40,015 nt of DNA from NCBI GenBank assembly GCA_029210645.1, contig JARGFT010000002.1, forward strand, positions 1 to 40,015, written 5' to 3'. The stretch comes from Anaerosomatales bacterium. Lineage in GTDB: Bacteria; Actinomycetota; Coriobacteriia; Anaerosomatales; SLCP01. Below the pieces are notes generated by a model. That model made no database searches. It saw only the letters and a list, made by a program, of their open reading frames with translations, and was not told the origin of the DNA. Below, in pieces: positions 24,415-37,717 of this stretch. Each line of letters starts with the position of its first letter. The stretch's first letter is position 1. The translations under genes were made by a program, and so were the position numbers.

Positions 24415-25563
24415 TCAGGGTCTACTCAATCCGACGTGGCACCTCGAACAGATCGTGGGCTCGTGGCACTCGAAGCACGGTTCGGCGCCGTTCTCGCGCA
24501 CGATCGCGGGGTGCTCGACGGTTGTCCAGTCGGCCTCGCCGGTCGCACCTTCGTGGTGGCAGTTGTCGCAGAAGAACTGCACGTGGCAGTTCTCGCACAC
24601 CGGCTTGCTCAGGTCACCCGACTGGAAGCTTCCAGCGTGAGTGTCCTTGAAGTCTGCAGGGTGCGGCATCTCAACGCGGTGGCAGTCCGAGCAGAACTTG
24701 GCCTCGACGCCACCCTCGCCATGACAGTAGGTGCAGTTCTCGGCAAGCTGGTTGTACGCCTGCGGATGGCCAGCGGGCTCATCGATGTTGCGACGATTCG
24801 TCCAGTCGTTGGCCTGGTGGGTAGTCGGCAGCACCTCGGAATCGGTGTGACAGTCGACGCAGAAGTCCTTCTCGTGACACTTCTCGAAGCAGCCGTCCCC
24901 ACCCTGCTCGTTCACGGTGTTGGCGTGGATACGCAGCCACGGCTGGCCGTCGATAGCGCCCTCGTGGTGACAGTCGCTACAGAGCTCGACGTAGGTGTGG
25001 CAGTTGGTGCAGGACTCGGGGTTGTTCCGCCCGGTAGTGGCGTGGAACTCCTTGAAGTCCTGCGGGTGCGGCATGTCCATACCGTGGCACGCGCGGCAGA
25101 AGGCCGCATTCAGGCCGCCCTCGCCGTGGCACACTTCGCACGACGTGATCTCGTTGTTCGCCGCGACTGCGTGCTCGCCGAGTTCCTCAGCTGGCCTGCG
25201 GAGCCAGTCGTTCGCCTCGTGCGAGGTTGGAACCGGACTCAGCTCGTCATGGCAGTCCTTGCAGTACGAGATCTCGTGGCACGCCTCGAGGCATCCCGGA
25301 ACGCCGTTGGATCTCACGGCCTCGGCATGCTGCTGCTGACCCCATGCGACCTCGGTGTCGAACTCCCAGTTCGATGCCGAGCCGTGGTGGCAGCTGTCGC
25401 AGAAGTACGGATCAGCCGAGGTGTGACACATCTCGCACTTCTCCATGCTGCTGGCGACCAGTTCCGGGTGAGTGTTGGTCTTGAACTCGTCCGGGTGCGG
25501 CATGTCCATGCCGTGGCAGTCCATGCAGAACCTGGACTCGACGTGACACGTGGAGCAGTAGCC
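24415..25563 (-). repeat. Three tandem six-heme protein modules
   Basis: The coding sequence repeats a unit of about 135-139 codons. Each module runs CxxCH, CxxCH followed by a MPHP block with Phe-Lys-x-x-His, CxxCH, then CDSCHH/CSDCHH/CDNCHH, then a fifth motif (CLEACH, CFEKCH, CFECH) and a sixth (CKDCH, CVDCH, CSRCH). The first two modules end in a TSHEANDW/TTHQANDW segment; the third stops at the protein end. The period is clear at protein level while the DNA has diverged, so the duplication is old. Confidence 0.85.
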
Positions 25564-26505
25564 CACCTCGGCGACCTTGGGCAGGTGCGCAAGACGCTCG
25601 TACATCGGCGCGTCCTCGGAGAGCTCGCCACCGTCGGCAGCGTAGGCCTTGGCCGTGCCGAGCATCGACTCGTCGTTGCTCTCCTCGGCCGGCTCCTCGG
25701 TCTCGGTCTCCTCTTCGGACTCCTCGCCGTGAGCGTCACCGGCCGCCGCCTCGCGGGCCTCGATGTCCTCGAGCGCCATGTCGGCGTGGCCGCGCGGGTA
25801 GAAGCCGTCCTCGAAGTGGTTGCCCGGCTTCAGCTCGAAGTCAGGCGTGTGGCATGCGGCGCATGCTCCCGGTGCGGGGATCCCGCCCGGTGACTCATCG
25901 GTAAGGGTGTGGCAACGGAAACAGGCCGTCATGAGCATGAAGTCCTCATGCGGCTGGTTGGGGTTGCCGGTTGAGGAGTCGGTGAGTGTGAGCTCGAAGT
26001 CCTCCACGTGCGCGGTGCGGTTGTGGCACACCGTGCAGTGGATCTCCGCATCCTCATGGACCACGTGGTCGATGACGATGCCGGGACTGGGCGTGACATT
26101 GCGGTTCGCCAGGTTGTGGCATTGCGTGCACTGCCCGGAACCCATGTACTTCTGGCTGAGCGCCAGGTGAGAGCCCGGATTGAGCGGCAGGTGGAATTTG
26201 TCGGTTGCCGTCAAGTACAGCTCGCCAAGCGCCTCGGCCTTATGAAGCAGGAACGTGATCGGATCCGCGTTCACAGGCATGTGGCAGGCCATGCACGATA
26301 TCTTCGAGTGCGGGGATCGGTCGTACGCGATGATCGTGTCGTCCTGCACCTTGTGGCACACGCTTGCACAGAACCAGTATGTCGATGTCACCCCTAATGC
26401 GATTACGACGAACGCAGCCATCCCCAGGACCAGAACTCCGGTCCAGATGATGTACCGCGGCCGACGGACCGGGTCTTTGAACCCGGACAGGGATATCTTC
26501 GCCAT
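24415..26505 (-). CDS. Membrane-anchored 24-heme c-type cytochrome (NapC/NirT-like head)
   Basis: The 696-residue protein has one N-terminal membrane helix (residues 18-40) and 24 heme-binding motifs: 21 CxxCH and 3 CxxxCH. The first, CASVCH at residues 46-51 right after the membrane helix, plus CMACH is the NapC/NrfH quinol-dehydrogenase pattern. Six hemes lie in the head (residues 46-235), followed by an acidic Glu-rich linker (about 257-280). Then three tandem six-heme modules begin near residues 315, 454 and 589. It probably takes electrons from menaquinol and passes them along the envelope; the partner is unknown. I chose ATG 26503-26505, 8 nt after AGGAG. Confidence 0.93.
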   Translation of the reverse strand: MAKISLSGFKDPVRRPRYIIWTGVLVLGMAAFVVIALGVTSTYWFCASVCHKVQDDTIIAYDRSPHSKISCMACHMPVNADPITFLLHKAEALGELYLTATDKFHLPLNPGSHLALSQKYMGSGQCTQCHNLANRNVTPSPGIVIDHVVHEDAEIHCTVCHNRTAHVEDFELTLTDSSTGNPNQPHEDFMLMTACFRCHTLTDESPGGIPAPGACAACHTPDFELKPGNHFEDGFYPRGHADMALEDIEAREAAAGDAHGEESEEETETEEPAEESNDESMLGTAKAYAADGGELSEDAPMYERLAHLPKVAEVGYCSTCHVESRFCMDCHGMDMPHPDEFKTNTHPELVASSMEKCEMCHTSADPYFCDSCHHGSASNWEFDTEVAWGQQQHAEAVRSNGVPGCLEACHEISYCKDCHDELSPVPTSHEANDWLRRPAEELGEHAVAANNEITSCEVCHGEGGLNAAFCRACHGMDMPHPQDFKEFHATTGRNNPESCTNCHTYVELCSDCHHEGAIDGQPWLRIHANTVNEQGGDGCFEKCHEKDFCVDCHTDSEVLPTTHQANDWTNRRNIDEPAGHPQAYNQLAENCTYCHGEGGVEAKFCSDCHRVEMPHPADFKDTHAGSFQSGDLSKPVCENCHVQFFCDNCHHEGATGEADWTTVEHPAIVRENGAEPCFECHEPTICSRCHVGLSRP

Positions 26506-26577
26506 AGACATCTCTCCTCGCTGAGCCTCGGACGTAGCCCCACGTGAAACAAGACACATGCACGTCTGACAGGTTAC

Positions 26578-27241: not shown

Positions 27242-27270
27242 TTGCCGAGCGATACCCCTTGGGGTATAAT
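27242..27270 (+). promoter_or_regulatory. Promoter with CsoR/CstR-like operator for the redox operon
   Basis: On the plus strand -35 TTGCCG (27242-27247), a 17-bp spacer and a perfect -10 TATAAT (27265-27270). The perfect palindrome ATACCCC-TT-GGGGTAT (27252-27267) covers the spacer and half of the -10. It has the TACCCC/GGGGTA look of operators for the CsoR/RcnR/CstR repressor family (copper, other metals or sulfane sulfur). No such repressor gene is in the window. It may also affect the divergent RidA-family gene. Confidence 0.7.
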
Positions 27271-27303: not shown

Positions 27304-27516
27304 ATGATCGGAATGCCTGCAGTGCGCATAGCGAACGACTCCTGCGACCGCTCGCCGGGGTGCCCTGCCCGAAGCGTGTGCCCTCGAGGCGCCATCCAGC
27401 CCGTCTCAGGAGGGTCCTACCCGGGGGCCAACGGGTACTATGTCGTGGAAGAGAAGTGTACGGGTTGTGGTGTGTGTGCACGCGTCTGCGCCGGCGGCGC
27501 AGTGACCTTTGCTTAG
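27304..27516 (+). CDS. Small 4Fe-4S ferredoxin-like protein with atypical first motif
   Basis: The 70-residue protein has seven Cys. The C-terminal motif CTGCGVCARVC (C52, C55, C58, C62) is a standard 4Fe-4S motif. The N-terminal one is unusual: C14-x5-C20-x5-C26-Pro instead of CxxCxxCxxxCP, so the second cluster has lost or changed a ligand. It probably carries electrons in the cytoplasm. The ATG at 27304 follows GGGA and GGTGA; a second Met lies 3 codons in. It is the first gene of an operon; its TAG stop overlaps the ribosome-binding site of the next gene, 10 nt away. Confidence 0.85.
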   Translation: MIGMPAVRIANDSCDRSPGCPARSVCPRGAIQPVSGGSYPGANGYYVVEEKCTGCGVCARVCAGGAVTFA

Positions 27517-27526
27517 GAGAGATATC

Positions 27527-27865
27527 ATGACCGAGAACGTAGTCACCATCCAGGTCTTCGACCTGCCTGCACAGACCGCGTGCTTCAGCGGCGGTTGAGG
27601 ACCGTCCTGGTCTCCGGAGGAGATCACTGCTCTGATCCGTGCCGAGATGGAACGCCGTTTCGGGGATGCTGCCCAGATCCTCTACCACGACGTTCAGGAC
27701 GAGTCGGTACGCACCGAGCACGCCAGGCTTCTCGATGAGATAGACACCCGCGGACTGCTCTACCCCGTTACCGTGTTCGACGGCGCGCCCGTCTACGACG
27801 GAGCCGTCTCCTACCCCGGCATCCTGCGAGCGGTACAGGAGCGGCTCGAGCGCAGCACCGCGTAG
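27527..27865 (+). CDS. Putative thioredoxin-like selenoprotein (in-frame UGA as Sec)
   Basis: The reading frame from ATG 27527 meets UGA at 27596-27598 (codon 24) and continues open for 88 more codons to TAG 27863-27865, giving 112 residues with Sec24. The local motif is C19-FSGG-U24-GPSW. The part after UGA has a thioredoxin-like look, with a YPVTVFDG segment (probable cis-Pro at 80). Codon use and amino acid pattern continue unchanged over the UGA, and a hairpin fits a bacterial SECIS. AGGAGA precedes the ATG. A weak likeness to DUF1462/YuzD, or to the thioredoxin-like (seleno)protein family SaoT known from family annotation, is possible. It probably works with the ferredoxin in one redox task. 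Confidence 0.8.
27604..27630 (+). other. Putative bacterial SECIS hairpin
   Basis: Just after the UGA, UGGUCUCC (27608-27615) pairs with GGAGAUCA (27619-27626; one G-U) around the loop GGA (27616-27618). Two further pairs lie below after a small internal loop (27604-27605 with 27629-27630). The loop starts 17 nt after the UGA and opens with G, which fits the accepted bacterial SECIS rules (G in the first two loop bases, about 16-37 nt spacing). Confidence 0.65.
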
Positions 27866-27878
27866 CGACCCGAGAGAC

Positions 27879-28172
27879 TCAGCGGGGCATCACGCGGTCG
27901 AGGAAGATGCCCACAAGGCCCTTGGACATGAACTGGTCCCACGCGCTCTCCTGCCCCCCCGGCGGGAGAGCGCGGTCGTATGCGCGTCGCAAGTCCGGGT
28001 CCTTCAGTACGCGGTACGCCTCGTTGATGCGCTGCATCCGCCGGGTGGCCCGCGCCTGCTCTCGGTCGGATGCGCGATCAGGATGATGCTTCAGACTGAG
28101 CGCCCGGTACGCCTTCTCGATGACTGCGGGGTCGGCATCGCGAGTGACCTGAAGCCTCTGGTAGTGGTCCAC
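27879..28172 (-). CDS. Small J-domain (DnaJ-like) protein
   Basis: The 97-residue protein is almost only a J domain: DHYQRLQVTRDADPAVIEKAY at the start, the HPD motif at residues 30-32, and INEAYRVLKDPDLRRAYDR. It lacks the Gly/Phe, zinc-finger and client-binding domains of DnaJ, so it is a co-chaperone that stimulates DnaK ATPase at an unknown place. The GTG at 28170-28172 lies 4 nt after GGAGGAG. It is convergent with the selenoprotein gene, 13 bp apart, with no clear terminator between them. Confidence 0.9.
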   Translation of the reverse strand: MDHYQRLQVTRDADPAVIEKAYRALSLKHHPDRASDREQARATRRMQRINEAYRVLKDPDLRRAYDRALPPGGQESAWDQFMSKGLVGIFLDRVMPR

Positions 28173-28247
28173 GCAACTCCTCCGTGCAGCGCATCGGGTG
28201 GCGGGCGGCATCATCGTACCATTCGCCCAGAGCGTGAGTCGCAGACC

Positions 28248-29153
28248 TCAGATCACGACCGGCTGCTCCTCGGCACCTCGCGCCCTGAGCTCGGAGATCA
28301 CCACCGCAACGAGCACGAGTGCGGCCCCTCCCAACTGGAGCGGGGTCAGGCGGTCGCCGAGCAGCAACGCCGCCAGCGCGATGGTGAAGATGGGCTCCAG
28401 GGTCGAGAGCAGGGAGGCCTGGGCTGCACCGATCCGCGAGAGCGCCCGCAGGTAGAGGATGACCGCGGCGAAGGTGGGCAGAAGTACGATGGCGCCGAGC
28501 AGCGCCCACAGCTGCCAGTCCCAGCCGACCGGAGCGAGTCGGGAGCCGCTGGCGAGCGCCGCACCGGTCACTAGTACCGCCGTGGCCGCGAACGTGTAGG
28601 TCATGAGAACGGAACGGGAGCGTCCTGGCATCCACCGGTGGGACAGCAGCGTGAAGCTCGCATATCCCGCCGCAGCGCCGAGACCGAGCACCACGCCGAG
28701 CGGGTGGGTCCCCCCGGATGCAGAGAACGGGTTGACCACGAGCACGCATCCGGCGAACGCAAGCAGGACCGCAAACGCCCTACCCGGATCCACCGGGCCC
28801 GGTCGCAGGACGGAGTCGACCACCGCAATCATCGCCGGATACGTGTAGAGCAGTACCGCGACGACCGATGCCTCGGCGTAGTTCAGGGCGAAGAAGAAGC
28901 ACAGCGACGCGGCACCGTATCCCGCGACCGAGAGGACGGCGTAGCGAGCGAGGTCGCCACCGGACACGCGCAGTGCCGACGGCTTCTTCAGCGCCAGGTA
29001 GGTGCCGAGAAGCACCGCGGCGATGCCGAAGCGCCATGAGAGCAGCTGCAGCGGCTGCGCACCACGCTCGTATGCGAGGCTGGTGAAGATCGCCAACGTG
29101 CCGAAGCACGCCGCGGAGACGGCCACTGCCGCCAGAGCCGTACGCCGCTTCAT
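28248..29153 (-). CDS. EamA/DMT family transporter
   Basis: The 301-residue protein has ten predicted membrane helices in two EamA repeats (about residues 5-135 and 148-290). The first opens AACFGTLAIFTSLAYERG with SWRFGIAAVLL; the second carries YASFTLLSHRWMPG and SLLSTLEPIFTIALAALLLGDRL, a typical EamA block. It is likely an exporter of small metabolites such as amino acids; the substrate is unknown. I use ATG 29151-29153 behind GGGTGGGG, which drops a shadow extension. Confidence 0.9.
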   Translation of the reverse strand: MKRRTALAAVAVSAACFGTLAIFTSLAYERGAQPLQLLSWRFGIAAVLLGTYLALKKPSALRVSGGDLARYAVLSVAGYGAASLCFFFALNYAEASVVAVLLYTYPAMIAVVDSVLRPGPVDPGRAFAVLLAFAGCVLVVNPFSASGGTHPLGVVLGLGAAAGYASFTLLSHRWMPGRSRSVLMTYTFAATAVLVTGAALASGSRLAPVGWDWQLWALLGAIVLLPTFAAVILYLRALSRIGAAQASLLSTLEPIFTIALAALLLGDRLTPLQLGGAALVLVAVVISELRARGAEEQPVVI

Positions 29154-29276
29154 CCCCCACCCTTCCCGTCCGGGCCCCACTAAAGGAGACAACCATGCCA
29201 CCGCCGTCGGGGTGCGTCAACGCCGTGGTATGCTCGTCCATCGTCGGTCATCCTGCAAGACGCCGGAAGGAGCACC

Positions 29277-34123: not shown

Positions 34124-37100
34124 CTAGTGACGCAGCCAGACCCTGTCGAGATACAGGTAGTGATTCTGGTTGCCGTTGTCCTTATGGTCGATGCGCACTC
34201 GTACCCGATCGTCATTCGAGAGGTACGCACCAGCCATGATCGGATACGTGTACTGACCTGCAGTCGTCGCCTTCGGTAGCGTGCCGATCACATCCCACGT
34301 AAGCGTGTCCCAGTTGTATGCCTCAACCTGAACGAGGTGGTTCTGGTTCCCACCGTCGTAGTAGCCGTAGATCTCGAGACTCGTCGGGATGCTGGCCAGC
34401 GGGAAGTACACCGGATGGAAGTCGATCTGGATACGCGACACCGGGGGCGCCCCGTTCAGCTCCCGGACGACGAGCAGGTTCCCGTCCTGCGTCTGTATCG
34501 ACGCGAGATCGCCGGTGAAGGTGTCATACGCCTGCACCTCGAAAGCCGAGGGATTCTCGTACTCCGGAATACGACTGTAAACATGCGCGGTGCTGTAATC
34601 GTGGCACTCAGTGAAGCAGCCACTGCCATTGCTCGGGTGATGGATCCAGTCGATATCGTCGCGGATCATGTGGTCGGTGCCGCCGTGACTCACGTGACAC
34701 GCATCGCAGCTGAGGCCGTGATCGTAGACGTGCTTCTGATGTAGGAGTGTGCCGGTCGTACTAGTCTCGGCATCGTAGAACAGGCTACCCGAGACCGGTG
34801 TGGGGCTGTCCTCGGTCCCGTCGTAGTAGACGGTCTGCTTATGGCAGGAGTAGCAGAGCAGTCCCGAAGCCGCCGGACGGGTACCGATGTACGGGCTGTC
34901 CAGGAGCGGGGCCTGCGAGCTGACGTGAGGGCCGTCAGGTCCTGCACCCGCGTTGCCGTGACAGCTTACGCAGTACATCTGCGAATCGACCGTCCAGCCA
35001 GTCACGAACGTGTCGGTGTTGTTCTGTGCGAACGGTGAGGGCGCGACCACCGAGTGGAACCCTTGATTACCGGCGGGATCGAGCTCGGCGGCGATATCGC
35101 GTGGCGAGTTGCCCCAGGAGGAGTCGGCATGACACTTGAAGCACATCTGGTACTCGTAGTCGACATCCTCGACCGGGACGTAAGGAGCCGAGAAGGCATC
35201 CACGCCCCACGTGCCGCGAACCGCACCGTACACGGATGGCGCGTACAGCGGGTTCGGCTCATCGGCCGCAGCCGCATGCACGTTATGGCAGTCCACACAC
35301 TCGGCGTGTCGCTCAAGACCCGCAGTCTCGGTCGAGACGTGTGCACCCTCGATGGCGCTCGCGGGATGGCGGCTCCTGCCAACCGGGCCGAGATCGACCA
35401 CGGCTACAGCCGGCGTGCCCCCGGCAAGTTCCGTTCCGCCACCCCACCGGGTGATGGCCACACTCATCGAATCGCCCGCCGCGTTTGCCCGGAACGCCTG
35501 CGCTGAAGGCGAGACAGACTCACCTGTGGTTCGCGAGAGCACACCGGCATTACCCACCACGAGCTGGATCTGACCGTCGCCATCGATATCACCGATCTCG
35601 AGCGCCGAGGTCGCATACCCATCGCCGGTCTCGTACGTGTCGTGCGCGACGAGGCCATTGCCGGCAACGGTCCGGAAGACGCTCACACCGCTTGCGGACG
35701 TATCACCGCGGAGCGCAACCGCCACCTCGACGGTACCCACACCCGGGAGAATGTCGCCGATCGCGGTATCCCAGGCTACAGCCCCCCCGGGACTGATCGT
35801 CGCTTCGTAGGAAGCCAACTCGACACCGGCCGAACTGAATACCGAGAGGGTGTCCACCGTCTCGCCGGAGTTCGCGACGACGATCTCGGTGGTCTCGGCC
35901 GAGGCAAGCCATACGTTGCCGATCGACGGCCCGCGCGGACCGGTTCGAGTCATGTACGCGGAACTCGAAGTCAGGGCTCCTCCTACTGCACTGAGGACCC
36001 GCAATTCGCCCGCTCCGAGCGGGTTGCCGGTCAGGGCGGTGACGACCAGGTCGGCGACATCGCCGCCGGTCAGATCGCCGGCCGCAAGACCCGATGCGTA
36101 GTCACCAACGTACTCGGGACCGGCCACCAGCGTGAAGCCGCTCCCGTTGTAGCGGTAGAGGCGCAAATAGCTCGCGCCGGCAGCCTCGATACTGACCGCG
36201 GCAACCTCGGGGAGGCCCGCACCGTCGACGATGAACTCCCCTATCTCGATGTACGTCGCCGTCTCCTCGATGCTGTGGCTCGTGTAAGAGAGTCCCGCAA
36301 GTGGATCCGTGCGGAAGACTCTCAGCACCGGCGAGGCCGGGTCGGCAACGACCAGCGCGGTCTCGCCCGATGCATCGATGTCACCGTATGCCATCGAGCC
36401 CGTTCGGCCATCCATCCCGTTCGCTACGCGGTAACGCCGCGGACCCTCGAGATCGTAGGGTGCCGTATCGTCGCCGAAAGCCCGGGTGTAGACGTGCAGG
36501 CCACCGTAGGCCGCAGGCAGGTTCGCCGGGTCCCACGCGACGACGAGCTCGGGCTCGCCGTCGATGTCTTCGGGGAAGACGCCGAACGACGCCATATCGG
36601 TGACGACCTTGGCGTTGTTGGCGTTATGGCAGGCGTAGCAGAGCGCGCGACCTTCGAGCTCGGCGAGCTTGGCGATCGGGCTCCCGTCGCCGTTGTCGCT
36701 GCCCATGGGGTTGTGGCACGACTGGCACTCGCCGGCAAGCCGTGTGGTCTCCTCGGAGGCGTACTCGGCGGTCACCGGCAGCGCAATGTCCGAGGAACCG
36801 TGCACGGTCTCGGTGGCCTCGTCGTCGTAGACCTCGGCGCCGAGCCATGTGGCCTGCGCCACCGCGTGGCAGGCGTAGCAGAGCGTGCGGTCGTTGGCGG
36901 TGATGGTCGCGGTCTCGGGCACGGCCGGTGCGACCACGGGCGGCACGATCTCGGCCGCGATCAGCGGTGCGACGTCCGAGCCGTGGGACGCGTGGCAGTT
37001 CGAGCAGGTGATCTGCGTACCGGATGCGGGATCCGGCAAGCCGAAGTGGGCCGTCTGCTCGTAGATCGACAGCCCGTCGAAGCGGTTGTCGTACTCGTCA

Positions 37101-37717
37101 CGGGCATCGTAGTGGCATGTGGCGCAGTACTGCTCGCCTTCATAGAAGGGTTCCCCCAGCTCTGTGAGCGCACGCAACAGCCCCGGGTAGGGAGTGCCGT
37201 CGGCGCGCTTCTCGGAACCGTGCGCGTCGTGACACGAGCTGCACTGTTTCTCGGGCACCTCTTCGTAGCGCGAGGCGTCCGGGAGGAGCGTGTGGGCCGA
37301 GTCCCTGAGGAAGTCATCCTGCACGACGATCTGCGAGCCGAAGCCCTCGATACCGTGGCAGGTCAGACAGAGAGCCGCGTCACCGGCGTTGGAGAGCGGA
37401 TTGGCGATCACGAGCGCAGAACCCGTGGTGTCCCAGGAACCGGACTGGGAGCGAGCGACGACACCGGGGGCAGTATGCGCCCGGTGACACATCGCACACG
37501 CGTCGGGACCCTCTTCGGTGGTGACGTGGGGAGGCAGGTCTACTGCCACTGCGGTACCCGGGACCACGAGCGCAGCCACGAGAAGGACCGCGCCAAGCGC
37601 GACCCGGATGAGCCTACCCCTTGCACCCTCGTCGGAACGCCGGGACTCGCCAGGCGCCTCTCGACCCTCGATCATTCGCCACATCCGTTCTGGGACCCCG
37701 TCTGAAGCCCGGTACAT
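34124..37717 (-). CDS. Secreted 14-heme c-type cytochrome with a beta-propeller insert
   Basis: The protein of up to 1197 residues has a signal peptide (about residues 35-60), eight CxxCH motifs (about 75-365), a heme-free region of about 400 residues with FG-GAP/VCBS-type repeats such as AYGDIDASGETALVV and EIGDIDGDGQIQLVV (about 385-800), then six more heme motifs (807-1034, the last CFTECH), and a C-terminal beta-sandwich of about 150 residues. That makes 13 CxxCH and 1 CxxxCH. It likely moves electrons on the cell surface; the propeller suggests binding to a partner or solid. The start is unclear: ATG at 37717, 37684 or 37675. A TATACT -10-like hexamer lies at 37750-37755. Confidence 0.9.
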   Translation of the reverse strand: MYRASDGVPERMWRMIEGREAPGESRRSDEGARGRLIRVALGAVLLVAALVVPGTAVAVDLPPHVTTEEGPDACAMCHRAHTAPGVVARSQSGSWDTTGSALVIANPLSNAGDAALCLTCHGIEGFGSQIVVQDDFLRDSAHTLLPDASRYEEVPEKQCSSCHDAHGSEKRADGTPYPGLLRALTELGEPFYEGEQYCATCHYDARDEYDNRFDGLSIYEQTAHFGLPDPASGTQITCSNCHASHGSDVAPLIAAEIVPPVVAPAVPETATITANDRTLCYACHAVAQATWLGAEVYDDEATETVHGSSDIALPVTAEYASEETTRLAGECQSCHNPMGSDNGDGSPIAKLAELEGRALCYACHNANNAKVVTDMASFGVFPEDIDGEPELVVAWDPANLPAAYGGLHVYTRAFGDDTAPYDLEGPRRYRVANGMDGRTGSMAYGDIDASGETALVVADPASPVLRVFRTDPLAGLSYTSHSIEETATYIEIGEFIVDGAGLPEVAAVSIEAAGASYLRLYRYNGSGFTLVAGPEYVGDYASGLAAGDLTGGDVADLVVTALTGNPLGAGELRVLSAVGGALTSSSAYMTRTGPRGPSIGNVWLASAETTEIVVANSGETVDTLSVFSSAGVELASYEATISPGGAVAWDTAIGDILPGVGTVEVAVALRGDTSASGVSVFRTVAGNGLVAHDTYETGDGYATSALEIGDIDGDGQIQLVVGNAGVLSRTTGESVSPSAQAFRANAAGDSMSVAITRWGGGTELAGGTPAVAVVDLGPVGRSRHPASAIEGAHVSTETAGLERHAECVDCHNVHAAAADEPNPLYAPSVYGAVRGTWGVDAFSAPYVPVEDVDYEYQMCFKCHADSSWGNSPRDIAAELDPAGNQGFHSVVAPSPFAQNNTDTFVTGWTVDSQMYCVSCHGNAGAGPDGPHVSSQAPLLDSPYIGTRPAASGLLCYSCHKQTVYYDGTEDSPTPVSGSLFYDAETSTTGTLLHQKHVYDHGLSCDACHVSHGGTDHMIRDDIDWIHHPSNGSGCFTECHDYSTAHVYSRIPEYENPSAFEVQAYDTFTGDLASIQTQDGNLLVVRELNGAPPVSRIQIDFHPVYFPLASIPTSLEIYGYYDGGNQNHLVQVEAYNWDTLTWDVIGTLPKATTAGQYTYPIMAGAYLSNDDRVRVRIDHKDNGNQNHYLYLDRVWLRH

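Follow-up and report, generated by a model that had tools for sequence, protein, structure and literature searches.

The locus described here raises the question of whether an in-frame UGA at the 24th codon of a bacterial reading frame ends a gene or is read as selenocysteine (Sec) and, in the latter case, what the resulting selenoprotein does. The window, by which we mean the whole stretch of 40,015 nucleotides analysed, contains a 112-codon frame that opens at ATG 27527, includes a single in-frame TGA at codon 24 and ends at a TAG stop (27863-27865), with the translation MTENVVTIQVFDLPAQTACFSGGUGPSWSPEEITALIRAEMERRFGDAAQILYHDVQDESVRTEHARLLDEIDTRGLLYPVTVFDGAPVYDGAVSYPGILRAVQERLERSTA. An initial annotation of this DNA had proposed an ATG with a good ribosome-binding site and a UGA followed by an open frame, and both were recovered; an AGGAG lies directly 5' of the ATG, overlapping the stop of the preceding ferredoxin gene, and the UGA falls within the motif C19-FSGG-U24-GPSW. 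Codon-position variability is of the coding type both 5' and 3' of the UGA, with third positions the most variable. Reassignment of the TGA code was considered and rejected, since TGA ends the neighbouring minus-strand genes (28214..27879 and 29201..28248) as an ordinary stop, and UGA24 is therefore a case of recoding. The features of the locus are listed in Table 1. Elsewhere in the window, two large multihaem c-type cytochromes with many CxxCH motifs are encoded on the minus strand (24415-26559 and 34124-37717).

Table 1 Positions of the features assigned to the UGA-containing gene and its surroundings
Feature	Position	Strand	Evidence or remark
Sigma-70-type promoter, TTGCCG - 17 nt - TATAAT	27242..27270	+	10/12 matches; 1 found versus 0.1 expected in shuffles
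Palindromic operator ATACCCCTTGGGGTAT, CsoR/CstR type	27252..27267	.	Overlaps promoter spacer and -10
Small 4Fe-4S ferredoxin-like protein, 70 aa, first gene of the operon	27304..27516 (start may be 27313)	+	Pfam Fer4 above cut-off
Sec-containing thioredoxin-fold protein, 112 aa with Sec24, DUF1462/YuzD relative	27527..27865	+	
UGA codon read as selenocysteine (Sec24)	27596..27598	+	TGA in all homologues found
Bacterial SECIS hairpin UGGUCUCC-GGA-GGAGAUCA	27608..27626	+	Synonymous-site freeze, compensatory changes in remote clades, GGA loop as in selD

A homologue scan of ~85,000 species genomes returned 31 loci, all from Coriobacteriia/Actinomycetota MAGs and 58-98% identical, every one of which has TGA at codon 24 (31/31) within the motif C-x(4)-U-G-P-[STA]-W-S-P-[EA]-E-I-T. 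When whole genomes were searched with the alignment of these homologues, the class yielded a match in 63 of 398 genomes with exactly one TGA inside each, and the rest of the phylum added 17 genomes from four other families with weaker matches (E 1e-5 to 1e-11), again with one TGA each. The corresponding motifs of the remote clades are SCSGGUGPSWSLEEI (f48), SCGFGUGSYGLSQAEI (f46), ACRGGGUAPPLSLEE (f54) and VCSGGGUGTVSWSRAEI (f98). Among the family homologues found, none terminates at codon 24 or encodes a standard residue at that point. Homologues with Cys or Sec at this position, a check suggested by the initial annotation, were indeed obtained: all family members have UGA, and Cys was seen solely in 1xg8, a distant DUF1462 structure, and in a single weak paralogue. 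This paralogue (L123, genome G553) carries a Sec about ten residues upstream (PSGUSSSG) and a Cys at the usual Sec place (GGCGLD), and looks as if the redox pair had been swapped. The possibility that TGC or TGT had been misread as TGA is excluded, because dozens of independent assemblies share the TGA. No relatives were detected in viral sequence from IMG/VR or in plasmid sequence from PLSDB.

The hairpin expected to direct decoding had been noticed in the initial annotation, with a loop opening with G and a distance of 17 nt from the UGA; it was confirmed here, with 17 nt separating UGA and loop. It consists of an 8-bp stem, with a 5' arm (27608-27615) and a 3' arm (27619-27626), closed by the 3-nt loop GGA (27616-27618), and is far beyond chance. 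The bacterial SECIS (bSECIS) model describes a stem of 4-16 bp and a loop of 3-9 nt with an early G, located 16-37 nt from the UGA, values with which the stem, loop and spacing of this hairpin agree (PMC13188914). MFE folding of longer downstream stretches gave competing structures, and we therefore assessed the element by conservation and covariation rather than by energy. Codon sharing given the same amino acid was compared among 54 non-redundant main-clade sequences, in which codons +5 to +9 (TCT CCG GAG GAG ATC) are frozen, with a codon identity of 0.99 as opposed to 0.53 in the flanking stretches and 30% at codons +1 to +3. TCT, which accounts for only 6% of the Ser codons in the rest of the gene, is used in 51/51 cases at the frozen position. 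The frozen codons coincide with the hairpin, exceptions occur mostly in the loop (GGA to GGC or UGA), and a U-to-A change in 3/54 sequences breaks one pair. In remote clades the hairpin is preserved through compensatory changes, for example UGGUCUCU-GGA-AGAGAUCA and CUGUCUCU-GGA-AGAGACGG. Across 18 distinct hairpins 96.5% of cells are paired and 19 two-sided changes were counted, neither value being reached in any of 500 shuffles, and slid controls were ~32-55% paired. Both the UGA and the hairpin are kept in every one of the ~80 related genomes examined, and we consider the hairpin almost certain to be a SECIS element.

The genome also has the means to decode it. As the initial annotation had recommended, we looked for selA, selB, selC and selD and found all four, with selB, tRNA-Sec (selC), selA and selD clustered at 78.7-83.8 kb of the contig from which the window is taken (C22), all above curated cut-offs. 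SelD of this genome (L166, G000:C22:82932-83849) contains an in-frame TGA and is itself a selenoprotein, and the hairpin that follows has a GGA apical loop, as does the one studied here. In a survey of 80 genomes, 62 of which have the Sec24 gene, SelA was present in 53 of the 62 gene-bearing genomes. The remaining nine MAGs, four of them 77-86% and five 95-98% complete, gave no detectable selA, and seven of these gave no selB above cut-off. Missing contigs are the likely cause, as the loss of one contig would remove all sel genes, which cluster. Four MAGs that are 96-98% complete (G026, G053, G055 and G485) have the UGA gene with no detectable selA or full-length selB. In the same order, the 99%-complete genome G022 has neither the Sec24 gene nor SelA.

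Taken as a real stop, the UGA would leave the downstream frame as a pseudogene or as a separately started C-terminal protein, and ATG 27647 could formally open a 72-aa piece. Against this, dozens of genera maintain the reading frame and the motif both before and after the UGA, the codon itself lies inside the invariant motif, selection acts on the hairpin at synonymous sites and through compensatory changes, and the Sec machinery is present, so that termination at codon 24 is exceedingly improbable. A pseudogene or sequencing error was rejected on the basis of the conserved TGA and the hairpin covariation. Conservation of the UGA, SECIS covariation and the sel genes together uphold the proposal of a selenoprotein made through an in-frame UGA, an assignment that we regard as practically certain.

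The Sec24 protein matches Pfam DUF1462 (PF07315, YuzD) at 30.4 bits (cut-off 25), and the PF07315 cut-off was passed in 45 of 61 genomes. An AlphaFold2 model (pLDDT 88, pTM 0.82) has the thioredoxin-type order of elements, and its active-site loop 20-23 is the sole run of three or more residues with pLDDT below 50. Foldseek ranked 1xg8 (SA0798, Staphylococcus aureus) first (E 1.6e-4, TM 0.62/0.64), followed by ArsD and thioredoxins, and Sec24 aligns with Cys22 of SA0798. The protein is a Sec-containing thioredoxin-fold relative of DUF1462/YuzD, and model and fold search bear out its earlier description as thioredoxin-like. This likeness is one of fold: there was no profile match to thioredoxin PF00085, no WCGPC site and no match to PF13192, and ArsD (PF06953) scored 12.1 bits, below its gathering cut-off of 27. 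The initial annotation had also suggested membership of, or relationship to, SaoT (NF040730). This was rejected, because NCBIfam gives no family at E<=1; the motif is also the wrong one (CxxxxU), and the nearest described family is PF07315. DUF1462 is absent from a table of 119 prokaryotic selenoprotein families in a 2026 review. The literature searched contained no paper combining DUF1462 with the term selenoprotein and no description under DUF1462, PF07315, YuzD or Coriobacteriia selenoproteins, an absence that is no proof.

In 46 of 52 loci the gene immediately upstream of the Sec gene encodes a ferredoxin, and the two genes very probably form an operon. The first motif of the ferredoxin is unusual (CDRSPGCPARxVCP; C-x5-C-x5-CP) and stands beside a normal CxxCxxCxxxC. 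In remote families a similar ferredoxin is encoded upstream (L153) or downstream (L144) of the Sec gene. The palindrome at the promoter is the only one of its kind in the window, and 100 shuffles gave none. In 51 of 52 loci the operon is preceded by the palindrome with <=2 mismatches, ~340 nt 5' of the UGA, while shuffled controls never fell below 3. Five of the six loci without a ferredoxin have it right beside the Sec gene, and it is also found upstream in the remote families f46, f54 and f98. In f54 (L154, L156) the Sec gene lies directly behind trxA and the palindrome precedes trxA; on the other side of the Sec gene from trxA is a small zinc-ribbon-like gene (CxxC...CxxC). In L146, L153 (f46) and L144 (f98), the Sec gene is immediately preceded by a gene for a small, charged protein of ~95-120 aa that resembles a coiled coil.

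Palindromic sites of this type are known for CsoR-type repressors, a family that includes metal sensors, and loss of the CsoR His ligand position separates CstR from CsoR. The only DUF156 (PF02583) repressor gene of the genome (L164 8115-8420) encodes a protein that keeps the paired Cys; at the position of the metal-ligand His of the aligned CsoR (4m1p) it carries Ser, as in the CstR type. A near-identical palindrome lies between this gene and that of a CDF transporter. ScCsoR, a sulfane-sulfur (persulfide) sensor of Streptomyces, binds ATACC-n6-GGTAT (PMC7533328), and the operon palindrome, which lies at the promoter, fits this pattern, as an operator of the CstR type would. Binding of the operator by a CstR-like repressor is predicted and, in our judgement, probable.

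The reach of this operator was mapped by pattern search in the same genome and in the complete genome of a relative, G019, which belongs to a different family of the order. Only four exact sites were found in the former (none with the reversed control pattern), located before the Sec operon, trxA, ccdA (DsbD_TM) and an SBF/ACR3-like transporter. The six sites in G019 (control none) precede trxA, the repressor/CDF pair, ccdA, the Sec operon, an MFS transporter and a rhodanese-thioredoxin fusion. Rhodaneses, thioredoxins and carriers of thiol electrons are tools of the persulfide response. The fusion protein (L242 1475-2230) is membrane-anchored and has an in-frame TGA at its thioredoxin site (WUPTC) in addition to the upstream palindrome, and is likely another selenoprotein of the sulfur regulon.

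The same regulon contains evidence that speaks against a role in sulfane-sulfur reduction, as the CDF and ACR3-like/SBF transporters could indicate metals or metalloids. Under such a reading, the selenoprotein would be an ArsD-like carrier or detoxifier whose Cys19/Sec24 pair captures soft metals or metalloids (arsenite, for instance) and passes them to an efflux system. The two other operator-bearing genes for a CDF exporter and the SBF/ACR3-like transporter, the ArsD structures just behind 1xg8 in the fold search and the existence of metal sensors among CsoR proteins fit this idea. A metal or metalloid role has some standing because of the fold match and the transporters, but we consider it unlikely given that the protein falls short of the Pfam ArsD cut-off, the transporter scores 89 against a cut-off of 283 with the ACR3 model, the repressor has no CsoR His ligand position, the operator is common to thioredoxin, CcdA and rhodanese genes, and the immediate neighbourhood of the Sec gene showed no ars genes.

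From the Sec codon, SECIS, machinery, fold, operon, operator conservation and shared regulon, all computational observations, we infer a repressor, its signal, a substrate and an electron donor as follows. SelB would recognise the GGA-loop hairpin and the ribosome would insert selenocysteine at UGA24, giving a soluble thioredoxin-fold protein with the redox pair Cys19 and Sec24 (CxxxxU), co-produced with the small Fe-S ferredoxin from one promoter. This promoter would most likely be shut off by the CstR-like, persulfide-responsive repressor; a build-up of sulfane sulfur would release the repressor, and the operon would be expressed together with thioredoxin, CcdA and others. Sec24 may then attack the sulfur of persulfides or polysulfides, with Cys19 helping the release of sulfide, and the selenenylsulfide could be re-reduced by thioredoxin and/or the partner ferredoxin. 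We assign a probability of roughly 0.6 to this explanation as a whole, a CstR-regulated selenothiol reductase for sulfane sulfur (persulfides/polysulfides). Reduction of sulfane sulfur is favoured as the function, somewhat above even odds, because the protein combines a thioredoxin fold with the conserved Cys19/Sec24 pair, its gene is co-regulated with trx, CcdA and rhodanese genes, and the repressor is CstR-like, and it is this context that suggests the substrate. S. aureus thioredoxins are known to reduce protein persulfides (PMC6196236).

The part played by the ferredoxin is more tentative. Its service as electron donor is doubtful, and a little more so is a dedicated two-protein enzyme in which electrons of the low-potential ferredoxin pool would pass directly through the selenothiol to sulfane sulfur with no ferredoxin-thioredoxin or NADPH-thioredoxin reductase. 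The presence of a ferredoxin partner and the strict Sec requirement would also suit a selenium-linked task, namely selenium or sulfur trafficking (for example, of reduced selenium to SelD) or general peroxide or disulfide reduction, with sulfur stress as one trigger among several. The same genome has selD, and in one remote family a gene of ATP-binding, sulfur-transfer-like type (L148; judged by eye) lies upstream. Several SelA-bearing members of the class, however, lack the Sec24 gene, which is therefore not a core part of Sec synthesis, and the common operator indicates a stress regulon; we regard this alternative, too, as improbable.

These results add to the selenoproteome a Sec-using branch of DUF1462/YuzD, a family of known structure and unexplained function. 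No Cys form was found among close and medium relatives, and selenium consequently looks essential to the chemistry. Selenium use is tied here to a reactive-sulfur regulon and a ferredoxin, and the function of DUF1462, long an open question, thereby becomes directly accessible to testing. Across a whole bacterial order, standard ORF calling would truncate the gene. If the two-protein enzyme proved true, anaerobic Actinomycetota would detoxify persulfides by an electron route that is new and that uses a branch of the DUF1462 fold with an obligatory dependence on selenium.

Several known systems resemble the one described here in part. SaoT is likewise a small thioredoxin-like selenoprotein, but with a UxxC motif in place of CxxxxU, and Sao transporter genes are not found beside the Sec24 gene. 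Sec-containing thioredoxins and the Trx-like Sec.1/Sec.2 proteins (PF00085, PF13192) share the thioredoxin fold and a Sec active site, whereas the Sec24 protein matches neither Pfam family and has its Sec after the Cys, with four residues between. The arsenic metallochaperone ArsD has a related thioredoxin-like fold and differs in its sub-threshold score and in the ars operon, which is lacking here. The closest likeness is to DUF1462/YuzD (PF07315; 1xg8, SA0798), which provides the Pfam match, the best fold match and the Cys22 aligned to Sec24; the Sec24 protein differs in having Sec for Cys, the CxxxxU motif, the conserved SGGUGPSWSPEEIT segment and a ferredoxin operon, and no Sec form of this family was found in the literature searched. 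With regard to regulation, the S. aureus persulfide reductases TrxP/TrxQ and the CstR/ScCsoR regulons likewise comprise thioredoxin-like proteins and genes that answer to sulfane sulfur, and the operator ATACC-n6-GGTAT (PMC7533328) is a further point of agreement. TrxP and TrxQ employ Cys (CPDC, CGTC) together with thioredoxin reductase, whereas the present system combines Sec with an Fe-S ferredoxin partner.
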